Positions 32,253-41,412 of a stretch of DNA of 41,412 bases are shown in pieces. A program made the translations under genes and the position numbers. This DNA comes from Melioribacter sp. (GTDB lineage: Bacteria; Bacteroidota; Ignavibacteria; Ignavibacteriales; Melioribacteraceae): NCBI GenBank assembly GCA_023250955.1, contig JAHEZQ010000036.1, positions 1 through 41,412 on the forward strand, written 5' to 3'. Each line of letters starts with the position of its first letter. Within the stretch, counting starts at the first letter, position 1. The notes below the pieces were generated by a model. The model made no database searches, was not told the origin of the DNA, and saw only the letters and a list, made by a program, of their open reading frames with translations.

Positions 32253-33629
32253 TTAGACAGTTCGTGAATAACGAGCTTGATCTTCTTTGCGCTCTATGTA
32301 TCCATCAAAATTTATAGCAATGTTTCGAATGAGCAGCCGTCCCATTTGAGTGACTACTAATTTTCTATTCTTAATCTCCAACAATCCATCATCAATAAAT
32401 TCTTGCATTCCATTAAGAGCTAAACCGAAATATTTTTCAAATTCTATGTCGAACTGCCCTTCAACAGATTTGAAGTCAAGTTCAAAATCACACATAATTT
32501 TAGTAATTACATGTCGTCGTAAAATGTCATCTTCTGTTAAATAAACGCCGCGTTCTATTGGAAAAGTTTCGTTATTTAAAGCATCAAAATAATCGCTTTC
32601 TTTCTTCAAGTTCTGAGAATAAGACTTTCCAATTTGACTAATGCTTGTGATACCCATTCCGTACAAATCAGTTCCCGCATGAGTGCTATAACCTTGAAAA
32701 TTGCGGTACAATTTTTTATTTCTCTGAGCAACTGCGAGTTCATCATTAGGCTTAGCAAAATGATCCATACCGATGAAAACATACCCTGCGTTAGTTAGTT
32801 TTTCAATTGTCATTTTTAGAATTTGTAGTTTTTCTTCAGGTGTTGGCAAATCTTCTGGCTTTATGAGAGCCATATGCTTTTTCATCCACGGAACATGAGC
32901 ATAATTAAATACAGCAATTCTGTTGGGAGAAATGTTAATAGTTGCATCAAGAGTTTTCTCAAATGTCTCAAGTGATTGAAACGGAAGTCCATACATCAGA
33001 TCGAGATTGATACTTTTAAAACCAAGTTCTCTAACCCAATTAACTACTTGTCTTGTCATTTCTTCGGGTTGAAGTCTGTTAACTGCTCTTTGAACTTTAT
33101 CATTAAAATCCTGTACGCCCATACTAATGCGATTAAATCCACCACTTCGCAGAGCTTCAAGATGCTCTCTAGTTAATCCGCGTGGATCAATTTCGCATCC
33201 CTCTTCGGCATCAGGACGAATTTCAAAACTTTTATTTATGAATGAAATGAGATCAATAATTTCATCGGGATTAAGATGGGTTGGTGTTCCTCCGCCCCAA
33301 TGTAGCTGAACAACTTTACGATCTGTTTTAATAAATGTTCTGAGTAGATCAATTTCGTTTTTTAAATACTTAATATATTCTTGAATTCTATCTCGATTAC
33401 GGGTGATTATCATATTACATCCGCAGAAGTAACAAAGAGTATCACAGAAGGGAAGATGATAGTAAAGAGAAAGATCTGGTGAATCAGCTTCATTGTTGGT
33501 GCGGATAATTTCATCAAGATACTTTTCATTTGTAAATGATGAATTGAAATGCGGTGCCGTAGGGTAACTTGTGTATCGCGGTCCGGGACGATCATATTTT
33601 TTTATTAGTTCAAGATCTATTTTAAACAT
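32253..33629 (-). CDS. hemN: Oxygen-independent coproporphyrinogen III dehydrogenase
   Basis: A 458-residue radical SAM enzyme of full HemN length. The iron-sulfur ligands are Cys62, Cys66 and Cys69 in FCDTLCYFCGC, with the HemN-specific fourth Cys71, which separates true HemN from the shorter HemW-type proteins. GGGTPTHL (SAM binding) and INLDLMYGLPFQS follow, and the C-terminal region after residue 370 is complete. It decarboxylates two propionates of coproporphyrinogen III without oxygen. AAGGA precedes the ATG. It is the last gene of the hemX-A-C-D-E-N run, 36 bases after hemE. Confidence 0.97.
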   Translation of the reverse strand: MFKIDLELIKKYDRPGPRYTSYPTAPHFNSSFTNEKYLDEIIRTNNEADSPDLSLYYHLPFCDTLCYFCGCNMIITRNRDRIQEYIKYLKNEIDLLRTFIKTDRKVVQLHWGGGTPTHLNPDEIIDLISFINKSFEIRPDAEEGCEIDPRGLTREHLEALRSGGFNRISMGVQDFNDKVQRAVNRLQPEEMTRQVVNWVRELGFKSINLDLMYGLPFQSLETFEKTLDATINISPNRIAVFNYAHVPWMKKHMALIKPEDLPTPEEKLQILKMTIEKLTNAGYVFIGMDHFAKPNDELAVAQRNKKLYRNFQGYSTHAGTDLYGMGITSISQIGKSYSQNLKKESDYFDALNNETFPIERGVYLTEDDILRRHVITKIMCDFELDFKSVEGQFDIEFEKYFGLALNGMQEFIDDGLLEIKNRKLVVTQMGRLLIRNIAINFDGYIERKEDQARYSRTV

Positions 33630-33665
33630 GATTAATCCTTATAAAAAATCATTTCATTCTATACA

Positions 33666-34730
33666 TTATTTTGTGTGAAAAATTCTACTCTCGGATTTTA
33701 CTACATCCACAAGCCATTTTGCATTCTCGGGTTTAACATCCGGTAAAATACCGTGACCAAGATTGAAAATATGTCCATTATTTTTACCATACGATTTCAA
33801 AATTTTCACAGCTTCATTTCTGATCTTCTCTTTATCGCCATATAATATTGTTGGGTCAAGATTACCTTGCAAAGCAACCTTGTTGCCAATCTTCTTTCTA
33901 ACTTTATCAAGTTCCATCGTCCAATCAAGACTGATTACATCAGCACCGCAATTTGCCAGCTTATTTAATTTGTAATGAACACCTTTCGCAAAAACAATCA
34001 CAGGTTCGTCTTTACGTTTTATTTGTGAAATTATTTTTTCAATATATTTTAACGAGAACTCTTCAAAGTCAGATGGGGAGAGTAATCCACCCCAGGTATC
34101 AAAGATCTGAACGGCATCGGCGCCGGCTTCAATCTTGGCGGAAAGATATTCGGCAACAGCATCGGCAAGTTTATCCAGCAAGATATGAGCTGATTTAGGA
34201 TCGTTGTAAATAAATTTCTTTATCTCAGAAAAACTTTTTGAACCGCCGCCTTCAACCATATATGTCATTAATGTCCATGGCGAACCGGCAAATCCAATTA
34301 AAGGTACGCGTCCATTCAATTCTTTTTTTGTTAACGAAACCGCATCAAGAACGTATTTTAAATTTTTTGTAGGATCAATTTTTTTTAAGCGATTAATATC
34401 ATTCATATTTCTGATTGGGTCATAGAGTTTTGGTCCTTTACTTTCGATCATTTTTAATTTCATTCCCATTGCCTCGGGAATAACCAGTATATCTGAAAAT
34501 ATTATTGCAGCGTCAACGCCGATTATATCCACCGGTTGAATTGTAACTTGTGCAGCAAGTTCAGGAGTTTTGCACATTTTTATAAAATCTGCTTTTTGGC
34601 GGAGGGCTCTGTATTCAGGTAAATACCTTCCTGCTTGACGCATAATCCAAATCGGTGTACGTTCAACTTTTTTTCTTTTACATGCTCTTAGAAATAGATC
34701 GTTTTTTAATTTCGTCAAAAAATCCTCCAT
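33666..34730 (-). CDS. hemE: Uroporphyrinogen decarboxylase
   Basis: A 354-residue enzyme of standard length that removes four carboxyl groups from uroporphyrinogen III. RTPIWIMRQAGRYLPEYR is the N-terminal signature with its substrate-binding Arg residues, and AAIIFSDILVIPEAMG includes the catalytic Asp region. FAGSPWTLMTYM and FNLGHGILPDV complete the family pattern. The start codon overlaps the hemD stop by one base (TAATG), indicating translational coupling. Confidence 0.97.
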   Translation of the reverse strand: MEDFLTKLKNDLFLRACKRKKVERTPIWIMRQAGRYLPEYRALRQKADFIKMCKTPELAAQVTIQPVDIIGVDAAIIFSDILVIPEAMGMKLKMIESKGPKLYDPIRNMNDINRLKKIDPTKNLKYVLDAVSLTKKELNGRVPLIGFAGSPWTLMTYMVEGGGSKSFSEIKKFIYNDPKSAHILLDKLADAVAEYLSAKIEAGADAVQIFDTWGGLLSPSDFEEFSLKYIEKIISQIKRKDEPVIVFAKGVHYKLNKLANCGADVISLDWTMELDKVRKKIGNKVALQGNLDPTILYGDKEKIRNEAVKILKSYGKNNGHIFNLGHGILPDVKPENAKWLVDVVKSESRIFHTK

Positions 34731-35515
34731 TAAACCATATTAACAGTAAGTTGAAAATATTTTATTATTGCTTCGGATACGCCTGAGAGAGAATAAGTCT
34801 TTGGTACGATGTGTACGCTTAAGCCATAACGTTCAACAGCTTTTTCAGTAGTTGAACCAATTGCGCAAATTATTTTATTAACAAAATAATTTGAAATATC
34901 ATTAATCTTTATCAATCCAATAAAATTATTAAATGAGGAAGGACTTGTAAAAATATATATATCAGGTTGCCTATTTATAATTTTTTCATATTCTTTTCTT
35001 AATTCAGAAAGATCACTTGAAACAACATCATATACATGAATCAAATCTACTTTTGCTCCTAATTCCGTTAATCCTAATTTTAATTCTCCATTTGAAAGTG
35101 AAGAACTAGGTATAAATATTTTTTTACCGTTAAGTTCAAATTTGGAGAAAATTTTTATCAATCCTTTTGAGCTGTATACTTCCGGTAAGATATCTACCTT
35201 AATTCCGTTGAAAGAACATTCTTCGGAAGTTTTTTCTCCAACAGCAGCTACTTTAATTTTTGTCAAATCAAGAGAATAACTTTGGATTATTTCTGCAAAC
35301 ACTTTTACAGCGTTTGAAGAAGTAAGGATCAAATAGTCAAAATCTGTAAAATGATTTATTACATTTTTTAGCTCATGTGATTCTAATCTAGGAATTACCT
35401 TTATCGTCGGGAAAAAAATAATTTTTGCTCCCTCATCACTCAACTGAGAAAAATATTTTTCTGCCGTTTCCTTTTTCTTCGTAACTAATATTACTGTGTT
35501 CTTAATAGACTTCAC
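34730..35515 (-). CDS. hemD: Uroporphyrinogen-III synthase
   Basis: A 261-residue protein with the two-lobed pattern of HemD. Sequence conservation in this family is poor, but LILTSSNAVKVFAE, VAAVGEKTSEE, DIYIFTSPSSFNNFIGL and CAIGSTTEKAVERYG are the recognisable blocks, and the gene lies exactly between hemC and hemE. It closes hydroxymethylbilane with inversion of ring D. The start is GTG, 2 bases after the hemC stop. It is not fused to a methyltransferase, so it serves haem and not sirohaem as far as the sequence shows. Confidence 0.92.
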   Translation of the reverse strand: MKSIKNTVILVTKKKETAEKYFSQLSDEGAKIIFFPTIKVIPRLESHELKNVINHFTDFDYLILTSSNAVKVFAEIIQSYSLDLTKIKVAAVGEKTSEECSFNGIKVDILPEVYSSKGLIKIFSKFELNGKKIFIPSSSLSNGELKLGLTELGAKVDLIHVYDVVSSDLSELRKEYEKIINRQPDIYIFTSPSSFNNFIGLIKINDISNYFVNKIICAIGSTTEKAVERYGLSVHIVPKTYSLSGVSEAIIKYFQLTVNMV

Positions 35516-35517
35516 TT

Positions 35518-36456
35518 CTATCTGGCTTTAATAAAAATATCATTTAATATTACAGAAGCGCCCGCTTTGAGTAAATCATGGGCTAATTTTACACCAAGCT
35601 TTTCCGGATCAGTTTTAGCTCCTCGAATTCTTTTTCTAAAAGTAACTAAACCATCTATTGATGCTACAACCGCATCAAGATATAAACCATTTGGCTTTAC
35701 TTCAGCATAAGCTCCAATAGGAATTTGACATCCGCCTTCTAATTCTTTGAGCAGCGAGCGTTCTGCTGTTACAGCCATATAAGTTTTTTCATGACGGATT
35801 CTTTTCAGCATCAACTCAGCTAATTTATTATCACTTCGTATTTCAATTCCTAAAGCACCTTGACCAACTGCGGGTAAAATATCTTTTATTTTTATGATTG
35901 ACGATATGTGTTTATTAAGTTTTAATCTTTCAACACCGGCACGGGCAAGAATAATTGCGTCCCAATCTGATTCAAGAAATTTTTTTATTCTGGTTGGAAC
36001 ATTTCCACGTAGTTCCTCAGTTTTTATGTCCGGTCTAATATGAAGTAATTGTGAACTTCTTCTTAGCGAACCTGTTGCAACAACTGCGCCTTCCCGCAAT
36101 TTTTTAATTGTCATTCCCTTTTTGCGAGCTATTAAAACATCTTCAACCCGATGGCGTTTTGTTACGGCTCCAAGTTTTAATCCTTCAGGTAAAACTGTTG
36201 GAAGATCTTTTAAACTGTGTACTGCAATATCAATCGAGCCTTTGAGTAACTCATTTTCAAGTTCTTTAGTGAATAATCCTTTATCACCAATCTTTGATAA
36301 AACAACATCAAGAATTTTGTCACCTTTTGTGTTGATGATCTTTATTTCAACATAAAGACTTCTATTTTTTTGTTCGAGTTCTTTTTTAATAAACTTTGCC
36401 TGCCAAAGTGCTAAATCACTTCCTCTAGTTCCAATAACCAGTTTATTCTTTTTCAT
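35518..36456 (-). CDS. hemC: Porphobilinogen deaminase (hydroxymethylbilane synthase)
   Basis: A 312-residue enzyme that links four porphobilinogens. The frame is open up to an ATG at 36495, but the ATG at 36456 follows AGAGGA with 8-base spacing and begins MKKNKLVIGTRGSDLALWQ, the usual HemC N terminus. Cys243 in LEGGCQIPIGAY binds the dipyrromethane cofactor, and VHSLKDLPT and LARAGVERL are further conserved blocks. With this start the gene overlaps the end of hemA by 14 bases. Confidence 0.96.
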   Translation of the reverse strand: MKKNKLVIGTRGSDLALWQAKFIKKELEQKNRSLYVEIKIINTKGDKILDVVLSKIGDKGLFTKELENELLKGSIDIAVHSLKDLPTVLPEGLKLGAVTKRHRVEDVLIARKKGMTIKKLREGAVVATGSLRRSSQLLHIRPDIKTEELRGNVPTRIKKFLESDWDAIILARAGVERLKLNKHISSIIKIKDILPAVGQGALGIEIRSDNKLAELMLKRIRHEKTYMAVTAERSLLKELEGGCQIPIGAYAEVKPNGLYLDAVVASIDGLVTFRKRIRGAKTDPEKLGVKLAHDLLKAGASVILNDIFIKAR

Positions 36457-37771
36457 TGACTCTATCCTCTTTGTGCTCATCTTCATTAAATTCATTTCCG
36501 TTTAAGGGAACTTCACCAAGATTGAAAAGTTCTTTAAGAATCATAGTATGTGCAGCAACCTCTTTAATATTAGCACCTGTCTCTGCAAACTCCCGTAATT
36601 TTACAGTTGGATTATGGAGAATTCGTCCCATCATTCTTCTGGTCATGTCTTCAATCTTTAAAAAATCTTCTTTGCTAACTTTATTTTTTATTTTTTCCAA
36701 TTCATCATTTCGGATTTCTTCGAAAAACGATCGCATTGTTTTAATTGTTGGAACAACATCAAGCGTATTTAACCAGCCATAAAATCCTATCATTTCATCA
36801 ATAATAATTTTTTGTACTAATGGAACTTGATCTTTTCGTTTTTGCAAGTTTTGATCTACTATAATCTTCAGTGAATCCATATCATGATAAAAAACGTTTT
36901 CGATTTTTTTTACGTCAGGATCAATATCTCTCGGAACAGCAATATCCATCAAGACAACGGGAGAATTTTTTCGCCTTTTTAGTGCAGATCTAATATTCTC
37001 GAACGAAATAATATAATTATCCGAGCTTGTTGCACTAATAATAATATCAAAATTATGGAGCTGCTCTTTTAGAAACTGGAATGGAACGATTTCACCGTGA
37101 ACTTTTTCTGCTAATTTTTCTGCACGTTCCATAGTTCTATTTGAGACAGCTAATTTGCCAATATTTTTATCTCTAAGATTTACCGCGGCAAGTTCACCGG
37201 TTTCCCCGGAACCAATTACAAGAGCTGATTTTTTGTCTAAGTTTGAAAAGATCTTCTCTACAACTTGAACTGCTGCATAACTAACGGTTACAGCACCCTC
37301 ACCGATTTTTGTTTCCTTAATGGCACGTTTGCCGGTTTTGATTGCGGTATCGAATATCTTTCTTAGCGCAGTGCCCGCAAAATCTAAATCTTCAGAGATT
37401 TCAAATGACTCTTTTACCTGTCCTAATATTTGACTGTCACCGATAATCATTGAATCAATTCCGGAAGCAACAGAAAATATATGTCTTACAGCTCCGCAAG
37501 AGAAAAATTTTAAAAAGTGTTCTTGCTGAATTCCATTAACCGGTTTGAATTGAATCAATTCATTAATAATAGGAGAGAGATTAAATTCATTAATTTTTGG
37601 AAAACCAAAAATTTCTGTTCGGTTGCATGTAGAAATTACAACACCTTCGGAAAACAATGATTCTTTCAATCTCGGGATGAAAGTTACAATTTCATCATGA
37701 TTTAAATGAAGCGCTTCTCTAAGTTCTAAAGGGGAAGTCTTATGATTTATTGATATACCAACTAAATTCAT
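36443..37771 (-). CDS. hemA: Glutamyl-tRNA reductase
   Basis: A 442-residue enzyme that reduces Glu-tRNA to glutamate-1-semialdehyde, the committed step of the C5 pathway. Cys49 in STCNRTEIF is the active-site thiol; GIDSMIIGDSQILGQV and the NADPH-binding ALVIGSGETGELAA follow. The C-terminal helical dimerisation domain ends in a charged tail (NEDEHKEDRVNEKE) that overlaps hemC. It sits 9 bases after hemX, whose Bacillus homologue lowers HemA levels, so control at this step is likely. Confidence 0.97.
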   Translation of the reverse strand: MNLVGISINHKTSPLELREALHLNHDEIVTFIPRLKESLFSEGVVISTCNRTEIFGFPKINEFNLSPIINELIQFKPVNGIQQEHFLKFFSCGAVRHIFSVASGIDSMIIGDSQILGQVKESFEISEDLDFAGTALRKIFDTAIKTGKRAIKETKIGEGAVTVSYAAVQVVEKIFSNLDKKSALVIGSGETGELAAVNLRDKNIGKLAVSNRTMERAEKLAEKVHGEIVPFQFLKEQLHNFDIIISATSSDNYIISFENIRSALKRRKNSPVVLMDIAVPRDIDPDVKKIENVFYHDMDSLKIIVDQNLQKRKDQVPLVQKIIIDEMIGFYGWLNTLDVVPTIKTMRSFFEEIRNDELEKIKNKVSKEDFLKIEDMTRRMMGRILHNPTVKLREFAETGANIKEVAAHTMILKELFNLGEVPLNGNEFNEDEHKEDRVNEKE

Positions 37772-37780
37772 TTTAAGCTT

Positions 37781-38605
37781 TCAATAAAACGAGTGGAACG
37801 TTTTTCCTAACGTATTAGTTACAATCAACGACATTATGGCAAAAACAAATCCGATTAATGAAAAGACGATAACCTTCTTACCATAGAAGTTTCCCAAAAG
37901 TTTTCTTAAAATTCCTATTCCATAAACTATCCACACAAAAAATGTCCCGATCAATTTTGGATCAAAATAACTAAAATTTGGAAAAGCATTGGGCAGCCAG
38001 ATTATACCAATAATAATTGCAGCAGTTAGAAGGATAAAACCAATAACCGCAGAATAAAAACTTAGTTTTTCTAATATTTCAAGGCTTGGGAGTCTATTAA
38101 AAATTAGACCAAACTTGTTCGCCTTTAAGTTCTTAAATAATAAAATAAATAGTAATCCATATACGGCCGAAATCGTTATTCCTGAATATCCTAATAATGC
38201 ATTTATAACATGAAGACCAAGTAAACGGTTCCGAAGAACTTCCGGAACTACAAAATTATGTTCAATAAAAAGTGAAGAAGCAATCTGGAATACGAGAGAG
38301 AATAAAATTATGAAAGCGCCGGTTCCTCTTATATCGGTTAACAATTCCAGAATGAAGTATGAAAACGAAATGGAAAATGCGATGATAGAAAAAATTTCAA
38401 ATTTGCTCGTAATCGGCGGATGATCAAATTCAATTGTACGAGAAATGAGATAAAAAAGATGCAAAAATAATGTAACAAAAAGGATAATCCGTTTTGAATT
38501 GTTTACAAATTTTTTCTCATTGAAAAAATCGTAAAGATACGCGGCAAAAACTAAGCAGTAAAGAATAGGCAGCAAAATATTTAAGGAATCTATTGGTTGT
38601 AACAT
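37781..38605 (-). CDS. hemX: HemX/CcsA-like membrane protein
   Basis: A 274-residue protein with about eight hydrophobic segments, in the CcsA/HemX family. The conserved histidine blocks LHVINALLGYSG (His132) and GKTFHSF (His271) are kept, but the haem-binding WWD motif is degenerate: where CcsA has WGxxWxWDPK the sequence reads AFPNFSYFDPKLIG (207-220), with the tryptophans gone and DPK kept. Position immediately before hemA and this loss point to HemX, a modulator of HemA, and not to a System II cytochrome c synthetase; no ccsB is present. It is the first gene of the hem run. The Shine-Dalgarno is weak. Confidence 0.82.
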   Translation of the reverse strand: MLQPIDSLNILLPILYCLVFAAYLYDFFNEKKFVNNSKRIILFVTLFLHLFYLISRTIEFDHPPITSKFEIFSIIAFSISFSYFILELLTDIRGTGAFIILFSLVFQIASSLFIEHNFVVPEVLRNRLLGLHVINALLGYSGITISAVYGLLFILLFKNLKANKFGLIFNRLPSLEILEKLSFYSAVIGFILLTAAIIIGIIWLPNAFPNFSYFDPKLIGTFFVWIVYGIGILRKLLGNFYGKKVIVFSLIGFVFAIMSLIVTNTLGKTFHSFY

Positions 38606-38802
38606 TCTTTAATTCATTTAGTTATAAAACACTTACTAAAATTGTGCCATTAATAAAAATTTTAGGGCTAAAGTTAATTAAATATTAGCATATTTTCTGC
38701 TGATTTGAAGGGGGATTTTTGAGTGACCAAACATTAGCTATTATATGTATATCATCTTTGGAAATCTGTGGAGCTTAATTCTTATATGTAGGATGTATAA
38801 AA

Positions 38803-38846
38803 TAAAAAAACCCCGAATCACGGACATTGCCATGAAACGGGGTTTA
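38803..38846 (-). terminator. Rho-independent terminator after the cytochrome gene run
   Basis: On the minus strand AAACCCCG (38838-38845) pairs with CGGGGTTT (38808-38815), followed by a T-rich tract. It begins 16 bases after the stop of the 11-haem gene and separates it from the hemX promoter region. The loop is 22 bases and may itself fold. Confidence 0.88.
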
Positions 38847-38861
38847 TAATTAATAATAAAA

Positions 38862-40040
38862 TTAATTTCCAAATACGTCTATCTTTCCATTCATGTGTTT
38901 TGTCTTATCAATTATTTTCCCATGATCATCAACCACACCTGTGTGACAATTAACGCAACCTTTTAGTTCAGCTTCCATATGTCCTCTAGGCGGTAAACCG
39001 TGACATGTACCGCAAGCTGCTTGTGTCCCATCGACTTTATTCCATGTAGGTTGGAAGTTCTCACCATCCATCTTATCTGCTGTATAAGCAAATGTCCATT
39101 GTGAAGTTGCTTTTGGAAATGAAAAATTTCCATGACAATATGTGTTTGAACATTTGTTTGTGTTCGCATCATAAGTACCATTACTATTTTGATAATCCGA
39201 GTACTTTGTAGTCAAGATTACTTCAGCTTTCGGGGTACTATCAATATGTCCGGAAGAATTTAATGATGTTGGAACAACGTGACAATCAGAACATTTAACC
39301 AAAGTGCTGATCTTTGCATTTAATAAGTGTGTTGAATGGGCACCAACACTGGCAAGTGTTACATCTGTTCTTCTATTTCTATCAACTGGCGGGGCGATTA
39401 AACTAGGATTATTGAAATTGCCATGGCAAGTATTGCAAGCTTCTGGCCCGCCGGAATTTGTATGACACTTGTTGCATGAAGGACTAGCAACACCACCTGA
39501 ATAATTACTTCCGTGACATTCAGTACATTTACTCATATCCCAGTTTAAGGAAGCAATAAATTTTCCATGAAAATTTGGTGATGCAGGATCACTGATTCCA
39601 TTTTTATGTGTTGTAATTTTTGAATGGCAATTTGTGCAAGCCGGGCTCGCAGTCCCTCCAGCAAAATTATCACCATGACATTGATTACAATCACTCATAG
39701 GAATTTTTTTATCAGCAATGTATTTCCCATGAAAATTGATAGAGGTGGGATTGTTAATTCCATTCTGATGAACAGCAACATTAGGATGACAACTAGATGT
39801 TGCACAACTTTTATTTGCAGTACCGCCATCAAATTTTGAAGCGTGACATTGTTTACAACTTTCTAATCCTTTTTCCTTAACTGTAACACCGTGAAAGTTT
39901 GCTGATACAGGATCAAGAACGCTTACATTATGTACTGAAATTTTTGATGGGGAAGTAAGATCATCTTTTATATCGCTGCATGAATAAAAACTTAATCCAA
40001 CTATCGCAACAAAGAACAAATAATATTTTGAATATCTCAT
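38862..40040 (-). CDS. Undecahaem c-type cytochrome lipoprotein with CX4CH motifs
   Basis: A 392-residue exported protein. A signal sequence ends at FYSC (Cys21), so it is probably a lipoprotein. Eleven haem motifs are readable: nine CXXCH (starting at Cys62, 118, 135, 172, 189, 202, 250, 343 and 362) and two CX4CH (Cys79 in CATSSCH and Cys297 in CSNTYCH). Residues about 44-205 are a 54-residue repeat with NFHG at 48, 102 and 156. From about 225 the sequence follows the Geobacter-type CX4CH...CXXCH domain, including CSNTYCHG and CGTCHGLPPRGH. It is predicted to carry electrons at or beyond the outer membrane. It follows the 14-haem gene by 24 bases. Confidence 0.93.
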   Translation of the reverse strand: MRYSKYYLFFVAIVGLSFYSCSDIKDDLTSPSKISVHNVSVLDPVSANFHGVTVKEKGLESCKQCHASKFDGGTANKSCATSSCHPNVAVHQNGINNPTSINFHGKYIADKKIPMSDCNQCHGDNFAGGTASPACTNCHSKITTHKNGISDPASPNFHGKFIASLNWDMSKCTECHGSNYSGGVASPSCNKCHTNSGGPEACNTCHGNFNNPSLIAPPVDRNRRTDVTLASVGAHSTHLLNAKISTLVKCSDCHVVPTSLNSSGHIDSTPKAEVILTTKYSDYQNSNGTYDANTNKCSNTYCHGNFSFPKATSQWTFAYTADKMDGENFQPTWNKVDGTQAACGTCHGLPPRGHMEAELKGCVNCHTGVVDDHGKIIDKTKHMNGKIDVFGN

Positions 40041-40064
40041 ATTCTTTCCAAGAGGTTAAATTAT

Positions 40065-41273
40065 TTAACGATGACAATAACCGCAGAAACCTACTCCTCT
40101 AACACCGCCAGGACGAGCATTTGCATCAGTGTGACATGAATAACAAACAGAACCGCGGTCAGTATGCCAATCACCATCTTCAGAATTGCTCATAAAATTC
40201 TTAGCGTGTGTTTTTGGATTTGTACCTTTAACACCATCATTATCAGTATGACAGAGTACGCAATTTGCATCCGCACCTTGTACATCATGACAAGCGGCAC
40301 ATCTTTCAATATCTCTTCTTGCTAACAAAGCATGTTGCCCGCCCCCGGTTCCAACTCCAATTGTTACAAAGTTAGGTGTCTTATGAGATACAGGTACATT
40401 ACCTTCTAGTGCAAAATCTCCACCTTTTGATTCATGACAGGCAGCGCAAAAAGTTTCTGTTTGATGACATGTTTGACATTCGGAAGATTTACTTTTTAAA
40501 TCAATCCCATGAGTATAACGGTAATTGAGATCGTGAACGCGCGTGATATTTTGTTGTTTGGTATTATCAATAAATTTATGCGGTGAATAAGGTGTAACAA
40601 AATTTCTTGATGAATTATTTTCGGTTATCATTGTTGTTGAAACATGGCATGATTCACAAAAAGAATTATCATGACACATTTGGCACTTAGAGTTTTCTTT
40701 TAACGCATTGAATTTGTGCGAACGTAAAAATGAAACTTCTTTATGATCTGTTGGAATCAGATTCGCAGTTGATATGTGACAAGATTCGCAATCATTGATA
40801 GCAACAGTTCGTCCATTATGACAGTCTGTACAAATATTCATAGATGGTTTATAATTTGGCGACTGAAAGCTGTAATCAACATCAGATAAACCTTTGTGAC
40901 AATTTTCGCATACAAACTTTTCGTGTGTTATATGAGCATTGTGATCAAATATTAAGGTTGGCTTTTTCTGAATCAGCGGCTCGAAATTTTCACCATAATG
41001 ACATTGTCCGCAATTTTTTTCATCATTAACATCATGACAAGTCGCGCAAGCCGCCTTTTCCGGAAGTAGACGTGTATTTAGTGATGTGCTTTCGCTTACT
41101 TTTGTATGACATGTTGCGCAGTCTGCAAGTTCTTTATGAAAACTATGTGAAAATTTTATTACGTCCTTATTTGTCTTTACGGGTTCATCACCGCCATTGG
41201 AATTGATCGCTGCAATGGTTAAAAAAGATACTAACATAAGTGCTAGGGCAGCATAAAAATATTTTATTTTCAT
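40065..41273 (-). CDS. Tetradecahaem c-type cytochrome, exported
   Basis: A 402-residue protein with signal peptide MKIKYFYAALALMLVSFLTIAA and no lipobox, so it is probably soluble in the periplasm or part of a complex. Fourteen CXXCH motifs start at Cys52, 76, 88, 122, 148, 162, 197, 206, 266, 276, 325, 338, 377 and 397; the last ends one residue before the C terminus. Many extra His residues (for example SHSFH, DHNAH, RSHKF) can serve as distal ligands. The motif density is about one haem per 29 residues, as in decahaem MtrA-type proteins. It starts 6 bases after the end of a beta-barrel gene and precedes the 11-haem lipoprotein gene. Confidence 0.95.
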   Translation of the reverse strand: MKIKYFYAALALMLVSFLTIAAINSNGGDEPVKTNKDVIKFSHSFHKELADCATCHTKVSESTSLNTRLLPEKAACATCHDVNDEKNCGQCHYGENFEPLIQKKPTLIFDHNAHITHEKFVCENCHKGLSDVDYSFQSPNYKPSMNICTDCHNGRTVAINDCESCHISTANLIPTDHKEVSFLRSHKFNALKENSKCQMCHDNSFCESCHVSTTMITENNSSRNFVTPYSPHKFIDNTKQQNITRVHDLNYRYTHGIDLKSKSSECQTCHQTETFCAACHESKGGDFALEGNVPVSHKTPNFVTIGVGTGGGQHALLARRDIERCAACHDVQGADANCVLCHTDNDGVKGTNPKTHAKNFMSNSEDGDWHTDRGSVCYSCHTDANARPGGVRGVGFCGYCHR

Positions 41274-41279
41274 AATCTG

Positions 41280-41412
41280 TTAGAAATTAGTATTAAACCA
41301 ATGATTTACTTTGAACATAATTCTAAAATCGTTCTTGTAAATCTTGTTATTAAAATATTGTCCTTGAAGATCAAATGAATAATTTGTCCAAGGTCTTAAA
41401 TTAAATCCGCCT
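41280..41412 (-). CDS. C-terminal end of an outer-membrane beta-barrel protein (partial)
   Basis: An open minus-strand frame enters from the window edge and ends at 41280. The 43 or so visible residues alternate polar and hydrophobic side chains (LRPWTNYSFDLQGQYF, NKIYKNDFRIMFKVNHWF) and finish NTNF, a terminal Phe typical of outer-membrane barrels. The stop is 6 bases before the 14-haem start, so the genes form an operon. An MtrB/PioB- or Pcc-type porin would fit the context; the fragment is too short to name a family. Confidence 0.65.
   Translation of the reverse strand, partial: GGFNLRPWTNYSFDLQGQYFNNKIYKNDFRIMFKVNHWFNTNF

Follow-up and report, generated by a model that had tools for sequence, protein, structure and literature searches.

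We identified, at the end of a 41,412-nucleotide stretch of Melioribacter sp. DNA (contig JAHEZQ010000036.1 of assembly GCA_023250955.1, hereafter the window), genes that very probably encode an electron conduit across the outer membrane, of the porin-cytochrome (Pcc) kind and in a form found in the Ignavibacteria. The genome totals 3.26 Mb, divided among 67 contigs, and the window corresponds to contig C5. Two multihaem cytochrome genes and the end of an outer-membrane barrel gene all lie on its minus strand, with gaps of 6 bases between the barrel and 14-haem genes and 24 bases between the 14-haem and lipoprotein genes, and a terminator closes the run. Read along the minus strand, the features are:

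41280..41412, minus strand: 3' end of the barrel gene, with its final 43 codons and stop codon, matching the barrel family profile at E 3.7e-21; the remainder is on contig C23
40065..41273, minus strand: 14-haem c-type cytochrome of 402 amino acids, with 14 CXXCH motifs, an N-terminal hydrophobic helix (export signal or anchor) and a match to Cytochrome_C7 at 9e-19
40770..41174, minus strand: c7-type haem domains of the 14-haem protein, residues 34-168, matching 3ov0 at E 3.1e-24 in a profile search against the PDB
38862..40040, minus strand: putative surface cytochrome, an 11-haem lipoprotein of 392 amino acids with 9 CXXCH and 2 CX4CH motifs and the GSu_C4xC__C2xCH domain (NCBIfam) at 8.1e-10
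39447..39908, minus strand: three two-haem repeats of the lipoprotein, motifs at residues 62/79, 118/135 and 172/189; borders approximate
38865..39446, minus strand: conserved core of the lipoprotein, with five haem motifs, at residues 202, 250, 297 (CX4CH), 343 and 362
38800..38845, minus strand: intrinsic terminator, hairpin 38845-38808 followed by a U-tract, -24.2 kcal/mol, z score -4.8

A first-pass annotation, made from the letters of the window, had described three minus-strand genes with these gaps, an exported 14-haem protein, an 11-haem probable lipoprotein, a barrel end terminating in Phe, and a closing terminator. All of these descriptions were borne out. None of 200 shuffled sequences gave a hairpin as good as that of the terminator, which is absent from a consensus terminator scan with a loop limit of 8 bases.

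The last 120 bases of the window (41293-41412) are identical to C23:1-120 and match nothing else in the genome over their full length, which places the remainder of the barrel gene on contig C23. The C23 part (L003:3-1253, minus strand) encodes 417 amino acids, and with the final NTNF from the window the protein has 421. The join is backed by relatives in which a single contig holds these genes, arranged alike and almost equally spaced; L041, for example, has gaps of 21 and 6 bases and a barrel of 97% identity. The break between C5 and C23 very likely comes from the assembler rather than from biology. Directly upstream of the barrel gene on C23 is a gene for a protein of 175 amino acids with four haem motifs, which matches the cytochrome c554 family at 6.1e-16. 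The unit is thus tetrahaem gene, barrel gene, 14-haem gene and lipoprotein gene. The three genes of the operon proposed in the first-pass annotation are as it described them, but it had missed the tetrahaem gene that belongs with them.

A search of the genome collection with the 14-haem alignment gave 238 loci, and we kept the best 80 (the named loci). These are labelled as Ignavibacteria or members of that class, or only as Bacteroidetes, Chlorobi or bacterium. The barrel gene is directly upstream of the 14-haem gene in all 80, an order that is not due to chance, and the tetrahaem gene is next upstream of the barrel in 70. Of the remaining ten, nine start with the barrel or just ahead of it, at the end of a contig, and the tenth, L163, carries a 9-haem gene in that place. 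The lipoprotein gene or a piece of it is directly downstream in 78 of the 80, being uncalled in L125 (contig end) and in L168; an alternative tally of 75 at the first downstream position and 3 at the second stems from split reading frames. Among 57 near genomes, which overlap the named loci, barrel and 14-haem gene occur together in 48, and in one genome the sole trace is a fragment of the barrel gene at the end of a contig. Presence of the 14-haem gene was counted at E 2.9e-40 or better; a threshold of E <= 0.001 would give 52 of 57, and we read the weaker matches (about 1e-5 to 1e-11) as probable other multihaem proteins. The trio of the first-pass annotation is therefore both syntenic and co-inherited in related genomes.

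The barrel profile matched 157 of 245 genomes of the class and 57 of 395 genomes of the phylum, all 57 being labelled as the same class or nearer. At most four candidates per genome were scored in the phylum scan, which makes it the less sensitive of the two. We also chose 40 loci by their barrel matches, 8 of them within the same family and 32 elsewhere in the class, beyond the order. The 14-haem gene is next to the barrel in 39 of these (31 of the 32 outside the order) and the lipoprotein gene is present in 38 (30 of the 32). The exceptions are L192, with the 14-haem gene uncalled, L198, which stops at a contig end, and L207, without a lipoprotein of the same family. Loci of more distant relatives often lack the cytochrome b and kinase genes found upstream in Melioribacter, or have others there, which leaves the row of tetrahaem, barrel, 14-haem and lipoprotein genes as the core.

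The barrel reading frame ends in KNDFRIMFKVNHWFNTNF followed by the stop codon, a Phe-terminated barrel C-terminus. We modelled the 97% identical protein of L090 with AlphaFold2, using a 73-row alignment (complete proteins of 410-440 amino acids from 73 of the 80 loci), and assigned strands with DSSP. The model has a mean predicted local distance difference test score (pLDDT) of 86.9, a predicted template modelling score of 0.77 and 24 strand segments, each 7 to 17 residues long, more than the minimum of 20 set in the first-pass annotation. Segments 183-189 and 195-201, two of the shortest, could be a loop hairpin in the model, so that the strands would number 22 or 24. All 50 matches to PDB structures listed by Foldseek and by VIA-align 2 are outer-membrane barrels, among them ushers, AlgE, porins and TonB-dependent receptors. 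Ushers top the Foldseek list, and the best VIA-align match is PirA (Z 20.1, root-mean-square deviation 4.4, 341 aligned). MtrB is not among the 50 listed matches, an absence that carries no weight. These matches among large barrels are general and point to no substrate. A profile search for a named PDB relative of the barrel gave nothing credible, the best hit being to an unrelated protein at E 0.052.

In the 14-haem protein, the c7-type region (residues 34-168) resembles 3ov0, 3ouq and 3oue, multihaem structures entered as "cytochrome c family protein", which we take to be the Geobacter dodecahaem protein GSU1996. The PDB profile search gave no relative of comparable strength for residues 200-402. 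The alignment of the window protein with those of 79 of the 80 loci covers proteins of 385-425 amino acids. Conservation was counted over 120 aligned rows, which hold second copies, since at least seven of L212-L218 repeat loci of L090-L169. All 120 rows keep haem motifs 1, 2 and 4-12; motif 3 occurs in 116, motif 13 in 109 and motif 14 in 108. Twelve further histidines are conserved, ten of them in all rows; His 356 and His 370 are kept at 91%, the same fraction as haem 13, and so probably serve as ligands of haems 13 and 14. Met-145 is kept at 99%. The count of 14 haems against twelve further conserved histidines and Met-145 suggests ligation other than bis-His for one or two haems. In the Geobacter dodecahaem protein, c7 domains include haems with His/Met ligation. 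Eleven relatives from the class lack the last two haems and have 11 or 12 left (L180, L181, L184, L185, L187, L189, L190, L191, L197, L206 and L207); L184, L189, L190 and L207 also lack haem 3.

In the 11-haem protein, Cys-21 follows a hydrophobic stretch, within the lipobox FYSC, and is followed by SDIKDDL, which predicts a lipoprotein. A rough scan of 109 family proteins, including fragments, a few false calls and second copies, found a plausible lipobox in 105, with Ser at position +2 in 93 of these and Asp or Glu at +3 in 84. Similar export signals, SDDDD and SDDFE, are given for Bacteroidetes lipoproteins in the available part of PMC5080379. The motif S-(D/E)-hydrophobic-(K/R/Q/N)-(D/E/N)-(D/E/N) follows the lipid cysteine exactly in 44 of 74 family proteins and in none of 25 other predicted lipoproteins from the same loci, of which at least two are mis-called.

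The lipid cysteine is followed by n two-haem units and then by the five-haem core, which includes the CX4CH/CXXCH domain named in NCBIfam. The units are mostly spaced by 54 or 56 residues (29 and 17 of 73 spacings). A strict rule of 2n+5 haems describes 88 of the 102 lipoproteins left after those with identical final 150 residues were collapsed: n is 1 in 51 of them, 2 in 23, 3 in 9, 4 in 2, and 5, 6 and 12 in one each. The window protein has n = 3 and hence 11 haems. Rule-fitting relatives range from 7 haems to 29, the largest being that of a Melioribacteraceae metagenome-assembled genome (L127:8219-10843), with 874 amino acids and 12 two-haem units. Among the 14 proteins outside the strict rule, five fit by eye (L118, L119, L138, L184 and L189) and nine do not. 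For L163, L167 and L169 the short second piece of a split reading frame had been taken; L158 looks cut; L145, L182, L190 and L193 lack a motif or are different; and in L111:8226-9647 it is the five-haem core, instead of the two-haem unit, that appears doubled (2 + 10 haems). The first-pass annotation had treated 25 haems in the two cytochromes as a property of the type. This does not hold, given the range of the lipoprotein and the eleven relatives with 11 or 12 haems in the "14-haem" protein.

The lipoprotein is, as far as sequence can tell, an accordion of two-haem repeats, while the barrel and the 14-haem protein vary little. A FastTree tree of the 14-haem and barrel proteins of 87 of the 88 rule-fitting relatives, with n of four or more pooled, requires at least 14 changes of n, against a mean of 32.4 when n is shuffled; none of 200 shuffles was as low. 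The number of units is therefore inherited but labile. A tandem-repeat search at the DNA level found no array in the window lipoprotein gene, and in L127 it found only one, of 13 bases in two copies, so the two-haem units look old at this level. We tentatively propose, while thinking it somewhat more apt to be wrong than right, that reach has been tuned by evolution: the membrane part would stay stable while a surface wire gains and loses whole two-haem units of about 54 residues, matching the thickness of the surface layer or the distance to the acceptor. If so, 7 to 29 haems would stand outside the membrane, with wire length set species by species. We found no description of the 2n+5 rule in a literature search, which covered open papers only, among them the available parts of PMC7399161, PMC11475568 and PMC12977616.

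The conduit could also be real while the lipoprotein repeats are spacers or mineral-binding modules, their haems incidental to reach and forming no wire. The repeats carry NFHGK-like and GG..SP-like stretches beside the haem motifs, as such modules might. We consider this unlikely, though it is the strongest of the alternatives, since the units come as haem pairs and the fit of 88 of 102 proteins to the strict rule indicates that haem binding is retained in nearly all units.

We return to the conduit as a whole. Directly observed are the gene content, synteny and co-inheritance, the conserved haem sites, the lipobox, the terminator and, for a close relative, the predicted barrel fold; from these we infer the formation of a complex, the insertion of a cytochrome in the barrel, surface exposure of the lipoprotein, electron transfer and its direction, and the acceptor. 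Upstream of the tetrahaem gene, C23 encodes a protein of 809 amino acids that combines a cytochrome b561 domain with 16 haem motifs, a cytochrome b561 of 283 amino acids, and a protein of 663 amino acids with 19 haem motifs. In this genus, these cytochrome b561 and multihaem proteins would oxidize quinol and pass the electrons on, and as candidates for that step they would complete a route from the inner membrane to the surface. The small periplasmic c554-type tetrahaem protein would take electrons from them and is the likely feeder of the 14-haem protein, whose haem chain would lie inside the 421-residue outer-membrane barrel. The 11-haem surface lipoprotein would then receive the electrons and deliver them, by way of its five-haem core and three two-haem repeats, to an external acceptor, most likely Fe(III) or similar solids. 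Melioribacter is reported to reduce Fe(III) (PMC6137239, in the part available).

The same conduit could run inwards and draw on a donor outside the cell, for example Fe(II) or Mn(II), in the manner of Mto and Pio. The direction of flow is not fixed by sequence, and Mtr-type clusters are described as serving Fe(III) reduction and Fe(II) oxidation alike (PMC4245776, in the text available). In addition, the nearest named relative, with 96% identity in the 14-haem protein, is a metagenome-assembled genome labelled Mn-Melioribacter-1, which is known by its label alone. Inward flow is nevertheless improbable, because the unit lies behind the cytochrome b561 and multihaem proteins in this genus, as would be expected for quinol oxidation (reversal being possible), and because of the Fe(III) reduction just cited. 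Finally, it is very improbable that the barrel is an ordinary porin or transporter, with the cytochromes serving a periplasmic redox enzyme and the gene order reflecting co-regulation without a complex: the barrel model is closest in fold to TonB-dependent receptors, ushers and porins, and the tetrahaem protein resembles cytochrome c554, but the synteny is complete, barrel and 14-haem gene are present or absent together, the barrel has no Pfam domain, and the terminal lipoprotein cytochrome is nearly always there.

The outward conduit thus remains our preferred reading, and the locus has the characteristic parts of a Pcc cluster: a gene for a porin-like outer-membrane barrel (the 24-segment model of L090), a gene for an exported multihaem cytochrome 6 bases downstream of it (14 CXXCH motifs) and, by its lipobox, an outer-membrane multihaem lipoprotein. 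In the accessible text of Shi et al. (PMC4245776), Pcc barrels have 18-22 predicted strands, the adjacent multihaem cytochrome has 5-14 haems, and most clusters include an outer-membrane cytochrome. Several results weigh against this reading. Eight of the 57 near genomes have neither the barrel nor the 14-haem gene. Past residue 200 the 14-haem protein is poorly modelled by AlphaFold (mean pLDDT 56.5), and the model does not support a rod threading the barrel. Acidic residues follow the lipid cysteine in 62 of 74 family proteins, but also in 19 of the 25 comparison lipoproteins, so they do not prove surface exposure. The barrel sequence has no match in Pfam or NCBIfam, and so no recognized plug domain; MtrB_PioB (PF11854) has no match anywhere in the genome, which speaks against membership of the Mtr/Pio/Mto family; and profile searches of solved structures gave no match to MtrA or MtrB.

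The kind of conduit has been reported before. As far as the available text of Shi et al. (2014; PMC4245776) goes, a pcc cluster in Ignavibacterium album comprises a periplasmic c-type cytochrome (IALB_1840), a porin with a periplasmic c-type cytochrome (IALB_1839/1838) and an outer-membrane c-type cytochrome with an atypical haem motif (IALB_1837), with IALB_1839/1838 outside the five Pcc groups and distantly related to them. IALB_1840-1837 come from the same class and form the same four neighbors, a likeness drawn from the printed order of locus tags and their descriptions rather than from sequences. Loci labelled Ignavibacterium sp. carry the unit (L124, L133, L135 and L147, for example). 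With this cluster reported in 2014, the present unit belongs to a known kind. The first-pass annotation had proposed a conduit of a distinct type; it was very probably right about the Pcc kind, but this divergent cluster shows that the kind is not new. What we add is the four-gene unit as counted across the class, together with the 2n+5 lipoprotein. In their accessible parts, two other papers describe OmbB-like or Geobacter-like barrels for the class: PMC7399161 reports OmbB-like clusters for two of its members and cites Melioribacter roseus and I. album, and PMC6137239 makes the same statement about both species.

Geobacter OmbB-OmaB-OmcB likewise has a barrel and periplasmic and outer-membrane multihaem proteins in one operon. 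Compared by gene content, the characterized complex has 8 + 12 haems (PMC4245776, text available), against 14 + 11 here, and the tetrahaem gene, a regular neighbor in the Ignavibacteria unit, is a further difference. The Geobacter ExtABCD, ExtEFG and ExtHIJKL clusters are further barrel-cytochrome clusters with genetic evidence. Where such clusters differ, the available part of that report (PMC6148476) describes the surface lipoprotein as typically swapped for an unrelated one, whereas here the same protein changes its repeat number. Shewanella MtrCAB and PioAB and MtoAB would work in a similar way, the barrel in the outer membrane housing a cytochrome; for MtrB 28 strands are predicted, and MtrA carries 10 haems (PMC4245776, text available).

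Our results lend further weight to the view that this class of bacteria, which is large and mostly uncultured, exports electrons; we also supply sequence profiles by which the unit can be spotted elsewhere. The lipoproteins form a natural length series (7, 9, 11, 13, 15, 17 and 29 haems) with related barrels, on which the effect of wire length on extracellular electron transfer could be measured. The change of haem number in homologous cytochromes is called an unexplored area in the available part of PMC7399161.

Farther upstream on C23 are two response regulators, a histidine kinase and a protein of 377 amino acids with 13 haem motifs. In each of the adjoining response regulators (L003:7546-9516, minus strand), the receiver is fused to a domain resembling the glycine cleavage H protein, GcvH, an odd fusion that recurs in close relatives. 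The histidine kinase (L003:9516-11411, minus strand) has one CXXCH and one CX4CH motif ahead of its HAMP domain and is perhaps a haem-c redox sensor for the adjoining electron-transfer genes. At C23 11408-14681, minus strand (L061), the genes for the 13-haem cytochrome, a hydrophobic protein of 412 amino acids and a protein of 300 amino acids with a ferredoxin-like cysteine motif stand in a row; this trio looks like a further quinone-linked redox complex heading the same gene run.

On the other side, past the terminator, the next gene downstream is:

37781..38605, minus strand: ccsA-like cytochrome c assembly protein, PF01578 at 8.3e-26

This gene is outside the conduit unit, although it adjoins it in a number of close relatives. 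It opens a further row on the minus strand (window 32253-38605), in which the cytochrome c assembly gene is followed by haem synthesis genes for HemA, HemC, HemD, HemE and a HemN-like protein. Genes for haem supply thus lie just downstream of the conduit genes, beside the demand for haem.

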